From Anaerofustis stercorihominis DSM 17244 (GTDB lineage: Bacteria; Bacillota; Clostridia; Eubacteriales; Anaerofustaceae): DNA of 64,000 nucleotides. Position numbers and translations under genes: made by a program. Where the stretch lies: NCBI RefSeq assembly GCF_000154825.1, contig NZ_DS560015.1, forward strand, positions 211,052-275,051, written 5' to 3'. Shown here one piece after another: positions 40,652-54,149 of the stretch (positions are counted from its first letter, which is position 1; every line of letters begins with the position of its first letter). The notes below the pieces were generated by a model. It worked only from the letters and a program-made list of their open reading frames with translations, ran no database searches and was not told where the DNA came from.

Positions 40652-40696
40652 ATGCTTTTGTATAAAAATAAGCGTAGTGAATGATTTCATATGAGC

Positions 40697-40876
40697 GGAA
40701 AATAACGAAGTTAATTTTTGCGAATAGTCGTTAGTTATCAGGTAAAAAGAAGCATTATGAGTATAAATTAAAGTATAAAAATGATCATAACAAATTGTTT
40801 TATATTCGAAAAAATCCGAAGTATTATTTTATGAATAGTCGGTAACTATCAGGAAAATATTAGCATAACGAGTATA
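40697..40876. repeat. Imperfect tandem duplication of about 110 bp
   Basis: Two units (from 40697 and 40807) share GAATAGTCG, TA-CTATCAGG-like and GAGTATAA blocks at a constant offset of 110-111 bp. The rest has diverged. It is non-coding and lies between the tRNAs and the mobile element. Confidence 0.6.
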
Positions 40877-41097
40877 ATCTTAATAATTCTCAGTATATAA
40901 ATTAGAAATGATATTTTACTTGAAAATAAAATCAAGCAAAGCTTGTGAATATTTTATAATCAGTTTAAAAATTAATATAATAAATTTTTTATTAAATGCA
41001 TAGTAATAATGATAGAAAGTGTTTATAAATTTCATATTGAATTATTTTTATAAGAAATTACAAAAAAACTGATTAAATACAGAAAATATATTTATGT

Positions 41098-41114: not shown

Positions 41115-41159
41115 ACCAAAGGGCAACTCAATAAGGGATTTGTAATCCTGTAAAATATC

Positions 41160-42835
<1,676 letters not shown>

Positions 42836-42920
42836 CTACTCCTTTCCGACAGCCTTCAAGCGGAACACCCAGTAAGGGTATTGTCATATTACCGTACTAT
42901 TCGGCATTAGTCGAGTTATA

Positions 42921-43094
42921 TTACGCTGATAATTGTGTTATTTCTGATAACTTTTCATGGTCGTTTGCATGGCTTGTAATAAGCCTTTTTACCTTATCGT
43001 AGGCTGTTTCGGCAGCCGTAGCACTTGTTTCGTATTCTATGATAAATAAGGTATTCCCGATCTGAAGTTCAGTTACACCAGATTTACTTTTCAC
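42921..43094 (-). CDS. TnpW-like transposon-encoded small protein
   Basis: About 57 aa from GTG at 43094, with AAAGAGGTGG 5 nt upstream; a GTG at 43103 overlaps the ribosome site. The short sequence (VTELQIGNTLFIIEYETS, then AYDKVKRLITSH) matches the pattern of TnpW proteins that accompany TnpX-type recombinases, a beta-rich start with a helical DKxxRLI end. Function is unknown. Confidence 0.65.
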   Translation of the reverse strand: MKSKSGVTELQIGNTLFIIEYETSATAAETAYDKVKRLITSHANDHEKLSEITQLSA

Positions 43095-43162
43095 TGAATC
43101 CACCTCTTTTCATTTACTCTTAAGTGAGTAACAGAACGCTACTCCCTTAGGAGTGATAATTT

Positions 43163-44080
43163 TTATTTAAGCTGAAGCAGCTTAACAGCTTCAGAACGTA
43201 TTAGTTTTGCATCAAGATACTCATGTGCAAGATAGCCTACTTGGTGATGCATGGTAAATAATTCTGTCAAAGCACGTACGCAGATTGGCATACGGTTGAT
43301 GATCCAGTAATAGCTGAAGTCACCAAATGCGATAATCTTATCTGTGCTTGGCATTGCATTGCAGATGTACACAGGTCTGCTCATGATAGTGTCGTTGATG
43401 TGATTCCAAATGTAGTTACCGTCCTTATCCTTAAGAGTGCGTAACTTCTGTGCAGTTTCATCGTTCATTAACCATACACCCTTAGTGCGATATTCCTGTT
43501 TGGTAGAGAAATACAGCGCAATGACATCATCATAGGTAAGTGCATCTGCTGTTACACCGACCTCAGCGCCATCGGTATCATGCAAAAATCCTGTAGGCAT
43601 ATCTACACCAGTACCATTTACAAATGCGTCTTCCTCAGATTTACCAAATCTTTTAGCAAAGCGGTTTACAAGGAAGTCTTCCATGTCGAATTTCATATCC
43701 TGCATAAAATCCATATCCATTCTATCGATGATGGCAAGTTTGTGGCATTTCACCTTTTTCTTAGTGAAAGATGATGCTACATCTTTTATAAAACGGTCGG
43801 TATTGCTTACTACCCATTCGGCTGGCTCATCACTATCAGAAAGCCAAATATCCAAATCAGAGTCAATAGTGGTAATGCTTGTGCAGATATTTCTGAAGAT
43901 ATATTCTTTCTTTAATGCATCCATAAACATACGATTACTGTCGTATGGAATAACGAACATATCACTTCCGGCGTTTCCTTTTCCCATAGTACTATACAGA
44001 ACGCCTTTTCCTTTCATCATCGTGTTCCAGAATGCTTTTCTGTAGGATTCGGATTCAATTGTAAAAGTGTCGTAATTCAT
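43163..44080 (-). CDS. HK97-type phage major capsid protein
   Basis: 305 aa from ATG at 44080 (AAGGAG 10 nt upstream; an in-frame ATG at 44101 precedes the ribosome site). Capsid-family features are SFTKKKVKCHKLAIIDRMD-like P-domain entry, DAFVNGTGVDMPTGFL, the segment GVWLMNDETAQKLR, and IIAFGDFSYYWI ... VGYLAHEYLDAKL near the end. No scaffold, protease, portal, terminase or tail gene is in the element. It could form a satellite capsid, serve as an encapsulin-like shell, or interfere with a helper phage. Confidence 0.88.
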   Translation of the reverse strand: MNYDTFTIESESYRKAFWNTMMKGKGVLYSTMGKGNAGSDMFVIPYDSNRMFMDALKKEYIFRNICTSITTIDSDLDIWLSDSDEPAEWVVSNTDRFIKDVASSFTKKKVKCHKLAIIDRMDMDFMQDMKFDMEDFLVNRFAKRFGKSEEDAFVNGTGVDMPTGFLHDTDGAEVGVTADALTYDDVIALYFSTKQEYRTKGVWLMNDETAQKLRTLKDKDGNYIWNHINDTIMSRPVYICNAMPSTDKIIAFGDFSYYWIINRMPICVRALTELFTMHHQVGYLAHEYLDAKLIRSEAVKLLQLK

Positions 44081-44084
44081 AATC

Positions 44085-44375
44085 TTAAATCTCCTTTGCA
44101 TTGGTGTTAATATATTTTTTCTTAAGAGAATCAGCTTCTCTGAGTGAGATATGTCTGCACTCTATAAGTGCATCCATCATATGGTCAAATGACTGATAAG
44201 GATACTGTTTGCCCTGATACCAGACAAAGAACACTTTGTCTTCAGTTGGATATAGCGGGCAAAGAATAACAACAGCGTCATCTTTGTTTTGAGGGACGAT
44301 ATCCAGAATGTAAAATGTCTGAAAATCGATCCATGTATTGCGTAAATAATGTGCAACCTTCTTATCAATATTCAT
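44085..44375 (-). CDS. Hypothetical protein of the mobile element
   Basis: 96 aa from ATG at 44375 (CGGAGA upstream). Unrecognised. It has a compact layout with VVILCPLYPTEDKVFFVWYQGKQ and a C-terminal helix of charged residues (READSLKKKYI). No membrane segment. It ends 4 nt before the capsid gene start and is probably cotranscribed with it; a role with the capsid protein is possible but not shown. Confidence 0.7.
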   Translation of the reverse strand: MNIDKKVAHYLRNTWIDFQTFYILDIVPQNKDDAVVILCPLYPTEDKVFFVWYQGKQYPYQSFDHMMDALIECRHISLREADSLKKKYINTNAKEI

Positions 44376-44399
44376 GTGTTTATTTCTCCGTTTTCTCAT

Positions 44400-44519
44400 A
44401 AAAAATTGTTGTGTTTGATTTAGGTTTAATTACCCCTTTGATTTCGCCTTGTTTGTACGCAAGACCCCACGCCGTTCCACGGTAAAAGAAAGCGTGGAGA
44501 TTTGCACCGCCCCTAGGGG
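44400..44519. other. Short GC-richer spacer with hairpin
   Basis: CCACGC ... GCGTGG (about 44467-44496) can pair around a 20-nt loop. It separates two small genes of the element; no gene is seen. Confidence 0.4.
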
Positions 44520-44834
44520 TTAAAGTTCAATGCGACACTTGTTTTGACAGAAGTTAGAAAGTTTTTTGTTGTATATCCTGTCATCTTCTTCTGTCCACTC
44601 GTGAAGATTGTTGCTGATGATAAAATCTTCTAAGTCCTTACGGGATAGAAATGTTGCATCGAATAAATCTCCGAAAATGCTCCAACAAGCGTGGTCTGCT
44701 TTAACGCTACACTGTACAAGAAATGCTTTTCCTTTACTATTTGCAAGCATAACCACAGGTTGGTATTTGTTGATATGTTTCATGTCATGTACATATCGGT
44801 CGAAGATAGATGTATCAAATCTGTATTTGCTCAT
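44520..44834 (-). CDS. Hypothetical protein of the mobile element
   Basis: 104 aa, AAGGAG before ATG. Unrecognised. The sequence has a beta-rich core (PVVMLANSKGKAFLVQCSV) and a C-terminal helical part. No membrane segment or known motif. It overlaps the end of a very small ORF upstream (ATGA), suggesting coupling. Confidence 0.7.
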   Translation of the reverse strand: MSKYRFDTSIFDRYVHDMKHINKYQPVVMLANSKGKAFLVQCSVKADHACWSIFGDLFDATFLSRKDLEDFIISNNLHEWTEEDDRIYNKKLSNFCQNKCRIEL

Positions 44835-44893
44835 GTGTCTACTCCTTTCCAGGCTATTGCCTTAATCGTTGATGTTCTTAGGTTATCTAGCAC
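44831..44893 (-). CDS. Possible 20-residue coupled peptide
   Basis: GTG at 44893 with AAGGAGGTGATG upstream encodes VLDNLRTSTIKAIAWKGVDT and stops in the ATGA that starts the next gene. The strong ribosome site otherwise leads only to ATG-TGC-TAG. It may be a coupling peptide or a chance ORF. Confidence 0.35.
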   Translation of the reverse strand: MLDNLRTSTIKAIAWKGVDT

Positions 44894-44916
44894 ATACGCA
44901 TCACCTCCTTCACAGT

Positions 44917-45001
44917 TGGGGCAATGGGGCAGATAAATATATATTTTCTCTATAGAGAGTAGAATTTTAAATCAACTATATATACTTGCCACAATGCCCC
45001 A
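44917..45001. repeat. Nested inverted repeat next to the primase gene
   Basis: TGGGGCAATGGGGCA (44917-44931) and TGCCACAATGCCCCA (44987-45001) are 13/15 complementary. At the centre is the perfect palindrome TCTCTATAGAGA (44947-44958). The left arm contains GGGGCA twice. It could be an origin, a primase site or an operator. Confidence 0.6.
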
Positions 45002-45006
45002 TGTTA

Positions 45007-47319
45007 TTATTCAAGAAAATCCGAAAGCAATCTGTAACCTATGACCATTGTGGTTTTCTCTCCGCCACCTTTCGGTCTTTTTCTGACTACGTTCGCCACA
45101 GCTTCAAGACTTTGTTTAAAGTTCTTCATGCTTTCGGCATAGTGACCGTTCTCGGCACACCAATCCTTATAGCATCTGTATACAGAAGAAGTCCTTTCTT
45201 CAAAGTCCCCTTGCTCCATGCAGTCTTCCATAAAGAGAACCATCTTATCGCTGTCATGCTGATATCTTGCAGTTGCATCTTTTACAGAATGTGGAAGTAC
45301 AAGCCCTTCTTTTCGTAGAAGTGCATATCCTTCAAGCAGCCAATTCAAAATAGCACTCTGTACTTCTGGTCTTGAAAACTCCTGTTTTAACGACTTGTCC
45401 TGTTCCGACTCATCAAAATGCCTTTCAAAAGGAACAATGATGACTCGACCACTTGTAAAAATGGTCATATCATTGACTGCAGGCAGATAATTGGTATTGA
45501 TGTAAAGCTTGAACAATGGCTGAAAATCAAAACTGTTCTCATGAAGAAAACGAGCATTGATGGTATCATTACCGGTCATGCTTTTTACCTGTGCTGCATT
45601 AAGGACAAGTCCTTTACCGGGTTCCGAGATATTTACAAATCGCACTCCTGCGAGACGGGCAATATCTTCGGTTGGCTGAGAACTGTTTGCATTATTCTTT
45701 TGAGCAAGTGTTTCGGGTCTTGCCGTACAACCATAAGAGCCAAGTACCTTTAATACACTTTCACAGAGAGTTCCTTTGCCATTACGAGTGCTTGCACCAT
45801 AGAGAATGGTCATACACTCATGTCTTGTATCTCCTGTAAGTCCGTAACCAAGCAGTTTCTGTAGAAATTTTGCTTTTTCCTTATCACCGAACATGATCTC
45901 TGAGATAAACTTATCCCATCTATGGCTTTTGGCATTTGGATCATATATGACATTGGAAATTTTCGTTAATTTATCACTGCTTTTATGCTCCAGACATTCA
46001 AAGGTATCCACACGAAGTGTTCCGTTTTTACAGTTGAAGATATATGGATCGGAATCAAATTCTGATACGGAAATGGGATGATACACCTATGCATCTTTTA
46101 GAATATTGATTCTGCACCCATGTGACTGCCATCGTTTGGAATAGTCCATATAGCTTTTTCGTTTATGCTCGTCTGTAATTTTCAAAGCATACATATGCAG
46201 AAGATTTGCAAGATTCATACATAACTTCATAGCTTTAAGTCCGCCGACATCCTGTTTCCATATACCATTCTCGTAATAAAACCACGATTTTCGCTCAGGC
46301 ACATAGCGAAGACAGTTTTCATAAAAATCTGCAAAGAGCATTCCTGCACCGATATCCGTCCAAGGATACTTTGTAATATCTTCGGGATTTAAAGCAATAA
46401 GCCTATTCATTTCATCATCAAAATCTTCACTTGCAGGAGCAGGAACTATCGGAGAATAGAAGTTCTTCATACCTGACAATGCTTTATCTATCGTTATTTC
46501 TCCATAAGTTTTGCTTCCGTGCATTTCATCCCACTTGCTACGAAATAAGGCAGACTCACGAAACAGTCTGTCTATCTGTTCTTTATTTCCGTTGCAATAG
46601 AATGAGAGTATAGATACAAGTCCTAAGTCTGCTTCACTCTGTGACGGATAATCGGAAATATCTCCATTCCACAGATTTTGAAATTTGTTCCTTTGCTTTG
46701 ATACCGTTGCTTTAGCAATGACACTTTCATCGGATAAAAATGATGGCCTGTTTTCAAAATTCAAATCGTTAACTGTCGGTACTTTTCTTTTCATATATGT
46801 ATCAATCAGCCACTGTAAACCATCTGTATTTTCTGCTATTTCATTTTTGAGATATACATCACCTGTGATAGTGACAAAACGATTTGTAGCACCTGCAACA
46901 TAAACCTCGATATCACCTTTCTTGATATGGTAGGTATCTTTGTCATAGACATAACCGTCAGCAACAAATAGAATTATGCGCAGACCTGTTCCGCTCGGAC
47001 TTATCTCTATGTATGTATTTCCGAAATGAGATGTGATATCTTCCGCAAGAGAACTGAGCTTGCCATCTTCAATACAATGGTCTAGGTCAATAGCAATCAA
47101 CTTACCATCCACACGGATTCCAATACCGTCATAAATATTCAGTGCATTAATTGCTGAATCAAAGTCAGTAAAAGTGCTTGGGATTTTCACTGATGCGTGA
47201 GCGTTAGTCATTGGATTGTATGGAACTTTTGTCATTCCAGAATCTCTATTCTCGTATCTCCAGTTGCACCATTTGGCATTTGCTTTTAGATATGGTGGTA
47301 TATTTTCAGTTTTTACCAT
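45007..47319 (-). pseudogene. P4-type primase/helicase gene interrupted by one in-frame amber codon
   Basis: Two ORFs are contiguous in one frame: 47319-46087 (410 aa) and 46086-45007 (359 aa), separated only by TAG at 46089-46087. The first part holds the bifunctional primase-polymerase domain ([23 protein letters not shown]). The second begins at the conserved FDSDPYIFNCKNGTL region and holds the SF3 helicase Walker A GASTRNGKGT. The stop follows INILKDA, where relatives typically have Gln, Lys or Ser, so CAG to TAG is the simple explanation. Suppression or restart at GTG 46086 could still give function. AAAGGAGG precedes the ATG. Confidence 0.85.
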
Positions 47320-47399
47320 ATGAATTTCCTCCTTTATTTCGTCTTCAATAGCGAAAGGACAAAACCGATACGTTTAAGTACCAATTCTTAAAATTTTTT

Positions 47400-47690
47400 C
47401 CTTATAAGTTACAGGCAAAGGAAAATGCTTGTTTTTTACCCCTCAAAGAAAAAGCTTTCACGAATCCAATTCTGGATTGAGTTCATATCCCTCTAAGTAA
47501 CAGGTAAAAGAAAATGCCTGCTTTTTAACTTCTCAGAAAAACTTTTTTAATTTCCTCTCTAACTGGTAGCCACGGGAAGATGGCTAAAAGGACGTTTTTT
47601 CAAAACTTTTATATGAAAGTGAAACATCCTACGAAATTGCCCTCTACCTTATAGCCACTAGAGAGCATATAATCTGACGATTTTGAAAAA
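47400..47690. repeat. Four imperfect hairpin-bearing units upstream of the primase
   Basis: Units begin near 47400, 47489, 47553 and 47640, each with a CCTCT/CCTTA start, a small hairpin and a T-rich tail. The stems are ACAGGC/GCTTGT, CAGG/CCTG, TAGCC/GGCTA and TTATA/TATAA, all different, with A/G-rich loops of about 10 nt. Non-coding. Confidence 0.55.
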
Positions 47691-47804
47691 TAAAATAAAA
47701 ATCCCCCAAGTCATATAGACCGGAGGGTAGGCACTAGAAAAATTCATAATTATGTGGTATAATAACGCTATATTTTTGAGATTACAAAGACTAGGAGATG
47801 CGAT

Positions 47805-48041
47805 ATGGAGTTACCGGAAGAGATAAAGCGAATTAGACAACGAAGTCTATTAACACAAAATGATTTTGCTAAAGAAGTAAAAGTTGCATTCTCAACTGTA
47901 AATAGATGGGAATGTGGAAAAGCAAAACCTAATATCAATGCGATGAAAAGTATTAAAGAATTTTGCCTTAATCATGATATAGATTATTCAACTGTTGAAG
48001 AGGCATGGCTTAACTACACTGTGGAGGTTAAAGAAAAATGA
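47805..48041 (+). CDS. XRE-family helix-turn-helix protein of the defence cassette
   Basis: 78 aa. The helix-turn-helix covers LTQNDFAKEVKVAFSTVNRWE (split family pattern, residues about 16-36) followed by GKAKPNINAMKSI. The protein is little more than the DNA-binding domain. Its stop overlaps the ATG of the methyltransferase gene (ATGA). It probably controls expression of the modification and restriction genes, like C proteins. GGAG precedes ATG. Confidence 0.88.
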   Translation: MELPEEIKRIRQRSLLTQNDFAKEVKVAFSTVNRWECGKAKPNINAMKSIKEFCLNHDIDYSTVEEAWLNYTVEVKEK

Positions 48042-50095
48042 TTAAAGATATTTTGAATTCAAATGAAGAAATACTTCCAAACACTAAACAAATAGAAGTA
48101 TTGAAGGAGAATTTTCCTGCCTGTTTTAACGCAGACGGCAGTTTTGATCTTGAAAGATTCAAAGAATATTTAAGTGACAAGTTAATGGTTAGTAATGAAG
48201 GTTACGAATTAAGATTCCTTGGAAAGAATTATGCTCGCTTGTTAGCATCTATTGATACTACTACTGTTATTGTGCCAGACGAAGAACATAACAACAAACC
48301 AGAAAACAAAGATAGCCAGAATATTTATATTTCAGGAGATAACCTTGATGGGTTAAAGCACTTGCTTAAAAGCTATGCACATCAGGTTAAATGTATTTAT
48401 ATAGATCCTCCATATAATACAGGCTCTGATGGATTTGTTTATAATGATAATTTTAACTTTTCGGCTGAAGAGTTATCAACAAAGTTAAGCATTGACGAGG
48501 AACAAGCGCAAAGAATTCTTGATTTAACAAAGAGCGGTTCAGCTTCCCACTCTGCATGGCTTATGTTTATGTATTCTCGTTTATTGTTGGCGAGGGATTT
48601 GCTCACAGATGATGGCGTTATTTTTATATCTATTGATGATAATGAACAAAGTAATCTAAAACTGATATGTGATGATGTTTTTGGAGAAGAAAACTTTGTT
48701 GCAAATATTATCGTTCAAGCAAATAAGAGGGGGCAAACATATAAGCAACTTGCTAAAACTCACGAATATCTTTTTGTTTATACAAAGAATGTTTCAACCG
48801 AACTTAATGAGTTAAGTAAAGGGCAAGGAGCATTTGATAAACAAGACAATATTGGAGAATTTGAAGAAAGAGAATTGAGAAACAGAAACCCTAAATTTGG
48901 AAAATTTAATAGACCAAATCTTTACTATCCAATATATACAAATCCAAATTCAATTGATGAATGTGGATATTGTCCTGTTTCACTAGAAAAAAGCGAAGAA
49001 TTCAGCATTGAAATTTTACCGTTAAACAGTGAAGGTGAAGAAAGTTGTTGGCGTTGGGGGAAAGATAAATTTAACCGTTTTAATAATTCATCCTCATCTA
49101 TGGAAAGTGAATTAGTGGCAAAGAAAAAGAACACTGGTGAATATGGATGTTATGAGAAATATAGAAAAGGAACATTTAAAGCTAAAACCATATGGTATGA
49201 AGATGATTTGGTAGGAGATTTATCGGGAGAAGACGATGATATTTGGGAAGAAACAAATGTTATAACAGAACAAGGTTCAAAAGAACTAACCGCCTATGAA
49301 ATGGGAGATGCGTTTGATTTTCCAAAACCAACTTATTTAATAAAGAAAGTATTCCATATAGGTTCAAATGATGGAGATATATGTTTAGATTTCTTTTCTG
49401 GTTCTGCATCTTCTTTTGAAGCATTATTATCATTGAACGCTGAAAGCAATGATACCAGAACCATGATTGCTGTTCAGTTGCCAGAAGATTTAGATAAAAA
49501 AATTTCCAATGATTCAAAGACTGAAAAAGCAAAAACGCAGAAAGTTCTTGATTTTTTAGATAGTGTAAATCGAAAGCATACACTTGATCAAGTTGGATTA
49601 GAAAGAATTCATAGGGCAACATCTAAAATTAAAGAAACATACCCAGATGCAAAAGATTCTCTTGGCTTTAAGCACTATACCCTTGAAGAGCCAAATACAA
49701 CTACTCTTGATAAGTTGGAAAATTTTGTTCCAGAAGATCAAGGTATGTTCTTAACAAATGATATCCTTACAGACTTTGGAACAAATACTGTTTTGACAAC
49801 ATGGCTTGTTCATGACGGATACGGGTTTAATGCAGATGTACAAAAAATAGATTTTGAGGGATATACGGGATATTTCATTGATAAACACCTATATCTCATT
49901 GATGCTGATATTACAAAAGACGCTATTGCTGCCATTGTAGATAAATATGAAACGGACGGTAACTTTAATCCGGGAAATGTAGTGTTGTTCGGATATAGCT
50001 TTGTTTGGACTATGACAGAAGACCTTAAAATGAATTTAGCAAGACTCAAAGATACGGAAAAGAACCTTCGTATAAACTTTGATGTACGCTATTAA
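48038..50095 (+). CDS. mod: Type III restriction system methyltransferase (Mod)
   Basis: 685 aa. N6-adenine methyltransferase of the beta class: DPPY at residues 123-126 precedes the SAM-binding FSGSAS at about 453-457 (usual FxGxG form). The intervening region is the target-recognition domain. The N-terminal Mod_N-like part includes IYISGDNLDGL. In type III systems Mod gives sequence specificity and protects host DNA. It starts 4 nt inside the XRE gene and is followed by res after 11 nt. Confidence 0.93.
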   Translation: MIKDILNSNEEILPNTKQIEVLKENFPACFNADGSFDLERFKEYLSDKLMVSNEGYELRFLGKNYARLLASIDTTTVIVPDEEHNNKPENKDSQNIYISGDNLDGLKHLLKSYAHQVKCIYIDPPYNTGSDGFVYNDNFNFSAEELSTKLSIDEEQAQRILDLTKSGSASHSAWLMFMYSRLLLARDLLTDDGVIFISIDDNEQSNLKLICDDVFGEENFVANIIVQANKRGQTYKQLAKTHEYLFVYTKNVSTELNELSKGQGAFDKQDNIGEFEERELRNRNPKFGKFNRPNLYYPIYTNPNSIDECGYCPVSLEKSEEFSIEILPLNSEGEESCWRWGKDKFNRFNNSSSSMESELVAKKKNTGEYGCYEKYRKGTFKAKTIWYEDDLVGDLSGEDDDIWEETNVITEQGSKELTAYEMGDAFDFPKPTYLIKKVFHIGSNDGDICLDFFSGSASSFEALLSLNAESNDTRTMIAVQLPEDLDKKISNDSKTEKAKTQKVLDFLDSVNRKHTLDQVGLERIHRATSKIKETYPDAKDSLGFKHYTLEEPNTTTLDKLENFVPEDQGMFLTNDILTDFGTNTVLTTWLVHDGYGFNADVQKIDFEGYTGYFIDKHLYLIDADITKDAIAAIVDKYETDGNFNPGNVVLFGYSFVWTMTEDLKMNLARLKDTEKNLRINFDVRY

Positions 50096-50106
50096 GGAGG
50101 CATAAC

Positions 50107-53073
50107 ATGGAACTAATCCTCCAACAACAATTACCACATCAGCAAAAAGCAATTGATGCTATTGTTGATGTATTTAGCGGTGCCTATATTTCAGCACCAA
50201 CACAATTTTATACAAATCCCACTTTTTCATTGGCTGATACTCACATTGCAACAAATATAAAAAGATTGCAATCTGAGTTACCGCCGGAATATCATTCAAA
50301 TGTTCCTGTTTCAGACAGTGAGTATCTCAATCTGGATATAAAGATGGAAACAGGAACGGGTAAAACATATGTCTATACAAAGACGATGTTTGAACTGCAT
50401 AAAAGATACGGCTTTAATAAATTTATCATTGCTGTACCCTCTCTGGCAATTAAAGCCGGTACAGAGCAATTCTTAAACGAACCATATGCAAGACGCCATT
50501 TCACCGATGGCTGTGGATACGGAACTGAAATTGAAACATTGGTACTGGAATCACCGAAAAACAAGAAAAAAGGTCGTTCTTATTTTCCTAGTGTAGTAAG
50601 TGAATTTGTAAAAGGTTCTTGCCAAAATACAAAGAAAATATATGTATTGCTTGTTAATATGCAATTATTGACAAATGGTAAAATGTTAACTCGTGATGAT
50701 TATGACTATGGAGTGGAAGGCTTTTATAGACCATTCAATGCCATTGCATCTACTAAGCCAATTGTGATTATTGATGAACCACATCGCTTTTCACGTGATC
50801 AAAAAGCTTTTAAAGTTATTCTCGATGAGATTAAGCCTCAATCGATTATCCGTTTTGGTGCAACTTTTCCGGAAACAACTACAGGAAGAGGGAAAAATAA
50901 AATTACAATTAAGGATTACCAAAATCTTCTTTATGATTTAAATGCTTGTGCATCTTTTAATCAGGGTTTAATCAAGGGTGTAGCAAAGGAACATTTTGAG
51001 CCTGTTTCAAAGAAAGAAGAAAAAGTAAAAATAACATCTATTGATAGCAAAGAAGCAGTTCATTTTCAGTATAAAAAGAAAGATGAAGCAGCAAGAAACT
51101 TTACACTGAAAAAAGGAGATTCTTTATCAATTATTAGTGATGCTTTTGAGGGAATAACTATTTCTGTAATTGATAAAACATCGGTTGAATTCTCCAACGG
51201 AATTATTAAGACTTCCGGAGAGGAACTTGATGTTGATATTTACATGACCTCATATCAGGAACAGATGCTGAGACTGGCTCTGCAGCGTCATTTTGAAACA
51301 GAAAAAGAAAATTTCTGTAATCGCAACTATAAGATTAAAACCTTAGCATTGTTTTTCATTGATGACATCACATCATATCGAAGTAGTGATGACGGCAAGA
51401 AGCCATATCTTCTAACAATGTTTGAAGAATTGTTGAAAGAACAAATAGAAAAAACCATATCATCTTTAAATGAGCACGATAAAGAATATAGAGACTATCT
51501 TGAAGCAAGCCTTTCAGATTTAAGTGCTTGTCATGCGGGGTATTTCTCTCAAGATAATAGTGATTCAGATGAAGACATAGCAAAAGAAGTTGATACCATT
51601 TTACATGGTAAAACACAGCTTTTGTCTTTTAAGAATGAAGATGGAACACTGAATACACTACGTTTTCTCTTTTCTAAATGGACTTTAAAAGAAGGCTGGG
51701 ATAATCCTAATGTGTTTACTATTGCAAAACTTCGTTCAAGTGGAAGTGAAAACAGTAAGCTTCAGGAAGTAGGACGAGGATTACGTCTTCCTGTTGATGA
51801 AAACGGAAATAGAATATCTAATGAAGAGTTCACACTGAATTATATTGTTGATTTTACAGAGGCAGACTTTGCTCAAAAACTTGTGGATCAAATAAATGGA
51901 GAACTTCCACAAACAGCAATTATTTCTGAAGAAAAATTGAATGCAGTAGCAAAGAAAATCGGCAAATCAAGTGATGATTTATTTGATGAACTTTATGATA
52001 AGCGTTACATTGACAGACATCTTAATATCAAACCAGAAACAAGAGATTTGTTCTTTGCAGAATATCCTGATTTTGCTAAAGGCTTATCTGCTGGAAAAGT
52101 TAAAGATAGAAATAAAGATAAACCAAAACCTGTGAAAATCCGCAAAGCTGTTTATAACGAAATAAAGGAACTTTGGGAAACTATCAATCACAGATATTTG
52201 TTGTTTTATGATAATGATTTAAATGATAATTTAGATGATGTTGTGTTGAAACTCTTTGAAAAGCCGGGAGTTTTTACGGATTTGGTTATGCGCAGTGACC
52301 GAGATGTGGTTGAAAGCAATGGAGCCGAGATGAATGTTATAAGAGAAACAGGGGTACAGTATGTAATTCAGAAAACAATTCCATACAATGTTTTTCTAAA
52401 AAGAATATCATCTGCTACAAATTTACCAATTAAAGTATTACACACAGCATTGACTAAATATGCACAAAAGCATGGAACTGAGTTTACTGCACATATCAAT
52501 GAGAATACGGTAGCAGGTTTCTGTGCAGAATTTTCTGCATGGAAGAATGATAATTTGCAAGGAAGATTTAGATATGAACGCAGTAAGGCTCCGTTAGGTG
52601 CAACAGCACTTACTTATGCAGACGGAACTGTAAGGAGCGAAATATCGCAAGGAAGGATAGGCACAAAAATTGTTCCCGGAACCCCTAGTGACAAGTATTT
52701 ATACGATTCCTACGCATATGATTCGCCATTGGAAAAAGACAATATTACTGCTGATATAGATGAAGTTATTGTCTACGGAAAAATTCCTAGAGCAAGCATT
52801 GCTATTCCTACAATTACCGGCGGAATGTATAGCCCAGACTTTATGTATGTGGTAAAGCATAAAAACGGACATAAAGAATTGAATATTATTGTTGAAACAA
52901 AAGATGTTGAAAACAAAACAGATTTGAGAGGTACTGAAAAAGCAAAAATAGAATGTGCAAAAGTATTCTTTAATATGCTTACTGCAGATGGCTATACAGT
53001 CCATTTCAGAGACCAATTAGGAAATAAACAAATGGCACAGATTATCAGTGAGGTTATGAGAGGTGAAAACTAG
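50107..53073 (+). CDS. res: Type III restriction endonuclease (Res)
   Basis: 988 aa. SF2 helicase with Walker A METGTGKT (residues 80-87), DEPH box (223-226, DExH variant), and helicase C-terminal motifs (KWTLKEGWDNPNVF, LQEVGRGLRLP). The C-terminal endonuclease domain shows a PD-ExK site: Asp911 in SPDF, Glu930 and Lys932 in VETKD. It translocates on DNA and cleaves when two unmodified sites are met, together with Mod. All motifs are intact. Its stop overlaps the GTG of the next gene. Confidence 0.94.
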   Translation: MELILQQQLPHQQKAIDAIVDVFSGAYISAPTQFYTNPTFSLADTHIATNIKRLQSELPPEYHSNVPVSDSEYLNLDIKMETGTGKTYVYTKTMFELHKRYGFNKFIIAVPSLAIKAGTEQFLNEPYARRHFTDGCGYGTEIETLVLESPKNKKKGRSYFPSVVSEFVKGSCQNTKKIYVLLVNMQLLTNGKMLTRDDYDYGVEGFYRPFNAIASTKPIVIIDEPHRFSRDQKAFKVILDEIKPQSIIRFGATFPETTTGRGKNKITIKDYQNLLYDLNACASFNQGLIKGVAKEHFEPVSKKEEKVKITSIDSKEAVHFQYKKKDEAARNFTLKKGDSLSIISDAFEGITISVIDKTSVEFSNGIIKTSGEELDVDIYMTSYQEQMLRLALQRHFETEKENFCNRNYKIKTLALFFIDDITSYRSSDDGKKPYLLTMFEELLKEQIEKTISSLNEHDKEYRDYLEASLSDLSACHAGYFSQDNSDSDEDIAKEVDTILHGKTQLLSFKNEDGTLNTLRFLFSKWTLKEGWDNPNVFTIAKLRSSGSENSKLQEVGRGLRLPVDENGNRISNEEFTLNYIVDFTEADFAQKLVDQINGELPQTAIISEEKLNAVAKKIGKSSDDLFDELYDKRYIDRHLNIKPETRDLFFAEYPDFAKGLSAGKVKDRNKDKPKPVKIRKAVYNEIKELWETINHRYLLFYDNDLNDNLDDVVLKLFEKPGVFTDLVMRSDRDVVESNGAEMNVIRETGVQYVIQKTIPYNVFLKRISSATNLPIKVLHTALTKYAQKHGTEFTAHINENTVAGFCAEFSAWKNDNLQGRFRYERSKAPLGATALTYADGTVRSEISQGRIGTKIVPGTPSDKYLYDSYAYDSPLEKDNITADIDEVIVYGKIPRASIAIPTITGGMYSPDFMYVVKHKNGHKELNIIVETKDVENKTDLRGTEKAKIECAKVFFNMLTADGYTVHFRDQLGNKQMAQIISEVMRGEN

Positions 53074-53975
53074 TGGACAATGATACATTTTCTTTATTAA
53101 GAAATAAAGAAATAATCGCCATCCTTGATGGAGATACTAAATATGGAGATTATGAATTTGAAGATTATACAACAATAAAAATTGCGATGCCATATTTGTC
53201 AGGAGCTGATTTATGTGCTTTGTCTACATTGTTCGGCCTTCCTGTAACATATTCATGGAATGGCGGCGCTTTAAGTAGATGGCAATATTTGGACAACTTA
53301 TTAGAACACTGCATAAAAGACAACAAGTGTTCCAGTTTATTGGCTCATATGTTTTCGCTAAATCAATTCTCAAAGATACTTAATGGACACGCGGCAGATG
53401 AAATTAAAAAAGCTCATAAAACTATTGTGGACAAAATTATTGAGCAAATTAATGGACTACTTTTCTTTGGTGGAAATGAACTTAAAATTATAGGAAATAC
53501 TTTTGTTGTTCGTCCAATAGGAAGCAAAGTTGAAATAGCTGCACCCAAAATAAAGACTATTGACAGAGAGTATATTAAAAGTATTTCATCAAGAGCAATG
53601 AGAGATATTGAACAAAATGATTTTGATAGTGCAATCACAAAATCGAGAACTCTTTTAGAAGAAACTTTCTGTTATGTTATAGAAAAGAAGAATGAAGTTC
53701 CCTCCGATAGTGGAGATATTGGAAAGTTGTACAAGCAAGTAAAAACTCTTTACAATATGCACAATGATGCTAATACGGACAGGAGAATAAACACATTACT
53801 CTCTGGATTAAATAGCATTGTTTCTGCAATAGCTGAAATGAGAAATAAAGATAGTGACGCACATGGTGTAGGTGCAAAGAGAATAACTATTTATGAACAT
53901 CATGCAAGATTATTTGTTAATGTTTCGGTGGCTATGGCAGACTTTATTCTATCTGTTCAGCAAAAAAATCCATAA
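53073..53975 (+). CDS. Abi_C-domain protein (abortive infection family)
   Basis: 300 aa from GTG at 53073, overlapping the res stop by one base (TAGTG) with GAGGTG upstream. The C-terminal half (about 160-295) has the Abi_C layout: RAMRDIEQNDFDSAITKSRTL, then LEETFCYVIEK, KQVKTLYNMHND, and RNKDSDAHGVG. The last segment, with Arg, Asn, Asp and His, resembles HEPN-type RNase cores. The N-terminal half is unrecognised. Translation coupling to a type III system suggests a second defence layer that acts when restriction fails. Confidence 0.82.
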   Translation: MDNDTFSLLRNKEIIAILDGDTKYGDYEFEDYTTIKIAMPYLSGADLCALSTLFGLPVTYSWNGGALSRWQYLDNLLEHCIKDNKCSSLLAHMFSLNQFSKILNGHAADEIKKAHKTIVDKIIEQINGLLFFGGNELKIIGNTFVVRPIGSKVEIAAPKIKTIDREYIKSISSRAMRDIEQNDFDSAITKSRTLLEETFCYVIEKKNEVPSDSGDIGKLYKQVKTLYNMHNDANTDRRINTLLSGLNSIVSAIAEMRNKDSDAHGVGAKRITIYEHHARLFVNVSVAMADFILSVQQKNP

Positions 53976-54010
53976 TGAATCTCATCTACCATTTCGGTAC
54001 TCGAGATAAC

Positions 54011-54060
54011 AAAAATGACCACACCAGAGTATTGATTTACTCTAGTGTGGTCATTTTGTT
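54011..54060 (+). terminator. Terminator of the defence operon
   Basis: A 20-bp stem (AAAATGACCACAC... / ...GTGTGGTCATTTT, 54012-54031 with 54038-54057, one mismatch) and T-rich tail. Confidence 0.9.
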
Positions 54061-54132
54061 TTGAATTCCGTTTGAAGGCTTCACTTAAAAATAGTTATTT
54101 CATCAAATCCCTAAGTGAGCCTCACAAATAGC

Positions 54133-54149
54133 TTATCTCTTTTTTATTT
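54133..54149 (-). repeat. Right 17-bp inverted repeat at the edge of the mobile element
   Basis: TTATCTCTTTTTTATTT, the exact reverse complement of 41098-41114. It touches the stop codon of the PTS EIIA gene. Confidence 0.5.

Follow-up and report, generated by a model that had tools for sequence, protein, structure and literature searches.

A 64,000 nt stretch of the genome of Anaerofustis stercorihominis DSM 17244 (contig NZ_DS560015.1; hereafter the window, in which coordinates are given) carries a gene for an HK97-type capsid protein beside genes for a primase and a large serine recombinase, and raises the question of what a mobile element would do with a single head protein. The element is very probably a phage satellite, and probably one of the cos type that works in the manner of SaPIbov5, the lone capsid protein joining the coat protein of a helper phage to give small heads. 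The preliminary description of this DNA, made from the letters alone, confined the element to 43163-47319, which proved too small: the boundaries lie at about 41120-54127 (13.0 kb), adding an open reading frame (ORF) for a TnpW-like protein of 60 aa, a helix-turn-helix (HTH) gene, a type III restriction-modification (R-M) system and AbiJ. On the minus strand (47319-41180) the order is primase, two ORFs of 104 aa, capsid, TnpW-like ORF and large serine recombinase. The same description saw nothing else of a virion, and indeed none of the genes for terminase, portal, protease or tail proteins turned up in the element; what it does have is a probable packaging site (Table 1).

A gene set that recurs across Bacillota

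When the same gene set was sought in other genomes, the core of primase, lone HK97-type capsid, (usually) TnpW and large serine recombinase was recovered from about 3% of the sampled Bacillota genomes (11/391 in a class sample, counting locus L012, which was re-assigned as a satellite, and 12/398 in a phylum sample), and further copies came from an order sample and the phylum sample. The set is found in Clostridia, Bacilli and other Bacillota, with the primase mostly intact. Apart from the window itself, the ten top-scoring matches in the class sample were all lone short capsids, in frames of 301-340 aa, and nearly all the remaining long matches were prophage capsids of about 400 aa. The primase, capsid, TnpW and recombinase genes are adjacent in the extracted loci and diverge from the HTH gene and a restriction system, which lie on the opposite side. 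For example, the copy on Bacillus badius plasmid pPM400 carries genes for an OLD-like ATPase, type III R-M, HTH, a P4-family primase, capsid, TnpW and recombinase, while that of Lachnospiraceae bacterium TWA4 has a capsid 71% identical to the one in the window and adjoins the same kind of HTH and methyltransferase genes. An exact-peptide scan of viral contigs gave no match with the window capsid as query and six loci with the B. badius capsid. No existing description of a satellite with this gene set was found in the open-access literature searched.

An unannotated faecal 'Bacteriophage sp.' scaffold (MT838964.1, 3020-4486) is also a satellite of this family; it has an excisionase-like ORF after the capsid gene, which suggests that some members use another type of integrase. 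Two genomes (G333 and G175) hold several copies each of a second satellite-like set (L266, 9272-10727; L267, 9714-11166; L268, 8343-9796; L269, 865-960 and 7018-8470), in which a primase about 35% identical and the same cos-like site are followed by a 437 aa, near-full-length capsid homologue with 24-26% identity to phage capsids.

The capsid protein and the cos-like site

The preliminary impression of an intact HK97-fold capsid protein of mature size was borne out by a Pfam match along the whole length (Table 1). Translation probably starts at Met8 (window position 44080), behind the motif AAAGGAG, and the protein of 305 aa is then as long as a matured HK97-type subunit. In an alignment, the first residues of all the family capsids fall close to the predicted site of maturation cleavage in phage capsids, and hence they are without the delta domain. 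They also have in common a deletion of five residues that are present in every prophage capsid examined, and in a tree a single branch (support 100/100) sets off all 29 prophage capsids. L012, first labelled a phage and lying outside the prophage clade, proved to be a satellite (primase, cos, capsid and recombinase) with the same five-residue deletion, so that the split between satellite and prophage capsids is clean.

An AlphaFold2 model of the capsid protein (predicted local distance difference test score 78, predicted template modelling score 0.74) has its best fold matches to EcCI2 of a capsid-forming phage-inducible chromosomal island (cf-PICI; Z 19.4), the capsid of a gene transfer agent (GTA; 19.0), HK97 (17.2) and encapsulins (17.0). 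As both kinds of shell are matched, the fold alone cannot decide between a phage head and an encapsulin; the PDB matches by sequence are GTA and phage capsids. Among the 17 copies of the badius subtype, whose capsids are 95-97% identical across many families, the ratio of nonsynonymous to synonymous substitution rates (dN/dS) is 0.078 for the capsid, 0.119 for the primase, 0.054 for the recombinase and 0.40 for TnpW. The capsid gene is under purifying selection.

The element also carries a non-coding site of about 100 bp that is probably a cos packaging site. The non-coding stretch that precedes the capsid gene in B. badius matches Heliusvirales phages, two in number (E 5e-11 and 5e-5), both times between the genes for an HNH endonuclease and the small terminase (TerS). 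By blastn, and so independently of the profile described next, the window site matches phage L111 (76% over 100 nt, E 5e-10). A profile (R1) built solely from the sequences of 12 element copies, the window's among them, matches the HNH-TerS gap of phages PV036449, PV036458, PV036439 and PV036447 (E 1e-19, 4e-19, 1e-12 and 5e-11, respectively), starting at the end of the HNH gene or no more than 8 nt from it; a fifth phage is matched weakly (E 0.017). The HNH (PF01844) and TerS (PF05119) assignments were confirmed in PV036449 and PV036458.

Viral contigs of the IMG/VR database were chosen by a 14-base core of the site only, and R1 finds the full site at E 0.01 in 49 places among the 80 contigs listed with this core. 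The core by itself lacks specificity, for at that threshold the full site is absent from 31 of those 80 contigs (one contig holds two). With an nhmmer profile, 62 copies of the site were counted on these contigs and in seven prophage loci; 46 of them are immediate neighbours of HNH and/or TerS genes in the same orientation, and five lie beside capsid genes. The site is present in every element searched, and there is no second copy in the genome of the window. Its position in the HNH-TerS gap suggests that it would be cut as a cos. In two loci (L104, 10958-12382, and L163, 1107-2520), a capsid gene stands between two cos-like sites in opposite orientation.

Candidate helpers with the site occur among prophages. 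A prophage with the order HNH-cos-TerS-TerL (large terminase)-portal-protease-major capsid protein lies on the same contig as an element in one genome (G569, L271), and the sister species of A. stercorihominis (G002, L272) has a prophage with the order cos-TerS-TerL-portal-protease-major capsid protein. In a prophage of G175 (L270, 5537-8168), satellite-type recombinase and TnpW genes stand where HNH would be, directly before cos-TerS; it is likely, judging by gene order, to be a satellite-phage recombinant. It mirrors the layout of the element there, a sign that satellites and helpers have exchanged DNA at this site. Related phages are 49-80 kb, against 11.6-14.6 kb for the elements, which thus amount to a fraction of the genome size of a helper.

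Proposed capsid redirection and its alternatives

Redirection of capsid assembly combined with packaging by a helper is proposed because a cos-like site and a capsid homologue occur together in a genome of about 13 kb, the same combination as in SaPIbov5. SaPIbov5, a Staphylococcus aureus pathogenicity island (SaPI), carries the cos site of phage phi12 and the gene for the capsid homologue Ccm, and cos SaPIs are about 14 kb (PMC5052747, PMC8569155). Ccm is 24% identical to the helper capsid protein and makes up the pentamers in heads of T=4 geometry (PMC8569155). SaPIbov4 and SaPIbov5 resemble the present element in size, in a phage cos site (a cos-like sequence here), in a single capsid homologue and in a helper that has an HK97-type head, a capsid protein with a delta domain, and a protease. 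In the SaPIs the capsid homologue is the only satellite protein in the head (PMC5052747, PMC8569155). The present family differs from them in its large serine recombinase, insertion into terminators, NrS-1/D5 primase, restriction cargo and wide host range, and its capsid protein differs from Ccm, of which residues 1-87 are a delta domain.

We infer the following course of packaging, co-assembly and head-size change. The recombinase would insert the element where it does no harm, in a terminator loop, and would also excise it, and the primase-helicase would replicate the excised circle. A helper of the HNH endonuclease/TerS/TerL type would recognise the cos site and package the satellite. During assembly, the mature-length subunit would join the helper capsid protein, and co-assembly would probably impose a head small enough to take about 13 kb but not the helper genome, the effect that Ccm has for SaPIbov5. 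Between mobilisations, the restriction cargo would protect the host cell. Co-assembly with redirection of head size, taken as a step of its own, is favoured only somewhat, and its main uncertainty is the missing delta domain.

Several points weigh against this proposal. The lone capsid is unlike Ccm in having no delta domain, and packaging, particles and excision are predictions. No prophage that could serve as helper, by a related capsid or a cos site, was found in the genome of the window, and the primase of the window copy is interrupted. One nearly uniform subtype spans many families, wider than would be expected of a helper-specific partner, although the cos-like site is likewise widespread. 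The range of element sizes could simply follow from the size of the restriction operons; constant genome size was considered as proof of headful packaging while early copies were about 13.3 kb, but later ones run from 11.6 to 14.6 kb and the size is suggestive only.

The preliminary suggestion of a capsid-forming satellite reduced to one structural gene stands as far as the satellite and its single structural gene are concerned, and the forming of a shell of its own is a rival explanation. On that account the lone capsid builds the complete shell, the helper gives only portal, terminase and tails, and loss of the delta domain has made assembly independent of a protease. A mature-length protein under purifying selection, with fold matches to self-assembling shells such as EcCI2 and the encapsulins, would suit it, and an own capsid would explain the wide host range. 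The delta domain is normally required for HK97-type assembly, however, and the element has no portal, scaffold or protease gene. Ccm of SaPIbov5 by itself forms no capsids (PMC8569155). We consider an own shell unlikely, and are a little more sceptical of pure interference, by which the capsid protein would be a defence that poisons the assembly of helper heads, with the element moving by another route. All the cargo tested is anti-phage, capsid genes can act dominantly and the capsid is the sole head gene, but a conserved cos-like site beside that gene has no role in a pure poison, and no conjugation gene was seen.

An encapsulin-like compartment loaded with the small proteins, also raised in the preliminary description, is very improbable and was rejected as the principal explanation. 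The protein has an HK97 fold of encapsulin size, and encapsulins are among its fold matches, yet the small proteins are not conserved (the badius type has none between primase and capsid), the kinship by sequence is with phage and GTA capsids, and the context is a mobile element with a phage packaging site nearby. No dedicated cargo gene was found in the loci examined, where the primase, TnpW, recombinase and HTH genes are the only conserved neighbours. Prophage decay with loss of the other head genes is scarcely credible and was likewise rejected; one gene is broken in the window (the primase), but Bacillota elsewhere have the set in intact form, the low dN/dS of the capsid indicates purifying selection, and the closest relatives are small elements of this same kind and not complete prophages, whose capsids form a separate clade.

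The satellite reading also sets the family apart from other known systems. Elements in which a tyrosine integrase acts at a fixed att site are PICIs proper, and since the present element has a large serine recombinase acting at varied terminators, it is not filed among them. The cf-PICI EcCI2 (PDB 9gyi), its top fold match by Z, also encodes an HK97-fold capsid, but as part of a full capsid-formation set; here there is only the capsid gene, with no portal, protease, terminase or connector. Heliusvirales-type gut phages (PV036458.1 and PV036449.1) share the HNH-TerS site (up to 89% over 55 nt) and have capsids 35-50% identical, but are complete phages with head and tail genes, and their capsids of about 400 aa have a delta domain and form a separate clade. 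P4-like satellites and the phage-inducible chromosomal island-like elements (PLEs) share with the family primase-driven replication, capsid remodelling (here as proposed) and defence genes. Their remodellers, Sid and TcaP, are scaffold-type proteins and not homologues of capsid proteins, in contrast to the capsid-protein homologue found here. Capsid remodelling by TcaP has been described for PLE (PMC10945586).

Insertion site, cargo and wider meaning

Table 1. Features of the satellite-like element and its insertion site (positions in the 64,000 nt window)
Feature	Coordinates	Strand	Evidence or remark
Host terminator, left arm AAATAAAAAAGAGATAA	41098..41114	+	17-nt perfect complement of 54133-54149
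Recombinase-side element end, imperfect inverted repeat ACAAATCCCTTATTGAGTTGCCC	41120..41142	-	End conserved in relatives; placed to within a few nt
Large serine recombinase, 550 aa	41180..42832	-	Pfam: Resolvase, Recombinase, Zn-ribbon, DUF4368
TnpW-like protein, 60 aa	42921..43103	-	PF14202, E 2e-6
Lone HK97-fold capsid protein, no delta domain	43163..44101	-	PF05065 (Phage_capsid), E 1e-59, whole length
Unknown ORF, 104 aa, not conserved across the family	44085..44399	-	No Pfam match
Putative cos-like packaging site, common to HNH-TerS gap of phages	44419..44521	-	Profile R1, 69 bits, E 1e-19 (window row among the 12 used to build R1)
Unknown ORF, 104 aa	44520..44834	-	No Pfam match
NrS-1/D5 (P4-type) primase-helicase, split by in-frame TAG at 46087-46089	45007..47319	-	Pfam; alignment to intact B. 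badius primase
HTH regulator, conserved divergent partner of primase	47805..48041	+	PF01381; retained in relatives
Type III methyltransferase (Mod), cargo	48038..50095	+	PADLOC MTase_III, E 2e-163
Type III restriction subunit (Res), cargo	50107..53073	+	PADLOC REase_III, E 3e-260
AbiJ, cargo	53073..53975	+	PADLOC AbiJ, E 2e-83; Abi_C PF14355
Cargo-side element end, imperfect inverted repeat TCAAATCCCTAAGTGAGCCTCAC	54104..54127	+	End conserved in relatives
Host terminator, right arm TTATCTCTTTTTTATTT	54133..54149	+	Complement of left arm

Both ends of the element are imperfect inverted repeats centred on AATCCCTA. Beyond these repeats the flanks are complementary, like the two arms of a hairpin, and have T-runs, which places the element, like most of its relatives, within an intrinsic-terminator loop. 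The sister species (L065) has an uninterrupted terminator hairpin upstream of the same phosphotransferase system (PTS) gene. Matched flanks of 15 delimited copies outscored all of 100,000 random pairings, with 4/15 pairs (B. badius, G333, G175 and G493) individually no better than mismatched ones. These copies occupy different sites, two of them in one genome, as is typical of DUF4368-type insertion, and are 11.6-14.6 kb long except for a 16.9 kb copy in which inserts break the recombinase and primase. DUF4368 recombinases are multi-targeting with a TT core (PMC10083194), and insertion into terminators fits this and specifies the target. Tn4451-like and other DUF4368 elements likewise have such a recombinase, a TnpW-like partner and many insertion sites; the differences here are the target, an intrinsic-terminator loop, and the carriage of a capsid gene and a cos-like site. 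A second element copy in genome G416 (L058, 5908-13309) has inserts in the recombinase and primase genes, the one adjoining the recombinase resembling, by reading, an IS256-type transposase. Imperfect intergenic repeats about 111-113 bp apart occur at 40660-40877 of the window, and similar sequence lies beside the same insertion site in the sister species (L065, 1-400).

The domains found in the recombinase agree with its first assignment as a serine recombinase, and the two small proteins are still best called unknown, PHROG matches being sub-threshold only. The primase is of the P4 type as first described, but is not a single intact gene: the TAG stands at a Gln of the B. badius homologue and the rest aligns end to end, so that the window copy is probably broken. 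This TAG is immediately followed by GTG, which could allow re-initiation and a two-part enzyme. A compact anti-phage island had been proposed, and this is supported by the type III R-M system and AbiJ of the window and by other restriction systems in relatives. When the proteins of the window element and eight further elements were scanned, the cargo of the latter included type III and type I R-M, Eco57I/IIG-type enzymes, a PbeAC phosphorothioate-type system, and OLD/GajA-like or AbiJ partners, each element examined having at least one modification-based restriction component.

A broader and distinctly tentative picture is of Bacillota-wide satellites in which one capsid protein without a delta domain builds or sizes the head, a site common to many HNH-type phages allows freer crossing of host families than in known satellites, and interchangeable restriction systems are carried inside terminators. 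If the SaPIbov5-like mode of action is correct, it would mean that gut and soil Bacillota harbour a further satellite family, and a widespread one, and would make the Ccm strategy, in which a stolen capsid protein redirects assembly, a general one that reaches well beyond staphylococci. It would also pose the question of how an HK97-type subunit enters a procapsid without a delta domain, and offer a 100-bp packaging signal that is directly testable in transduction assays. For the bacteria themselves, it would explain how restriction systems spread between families, namely via phage particles.

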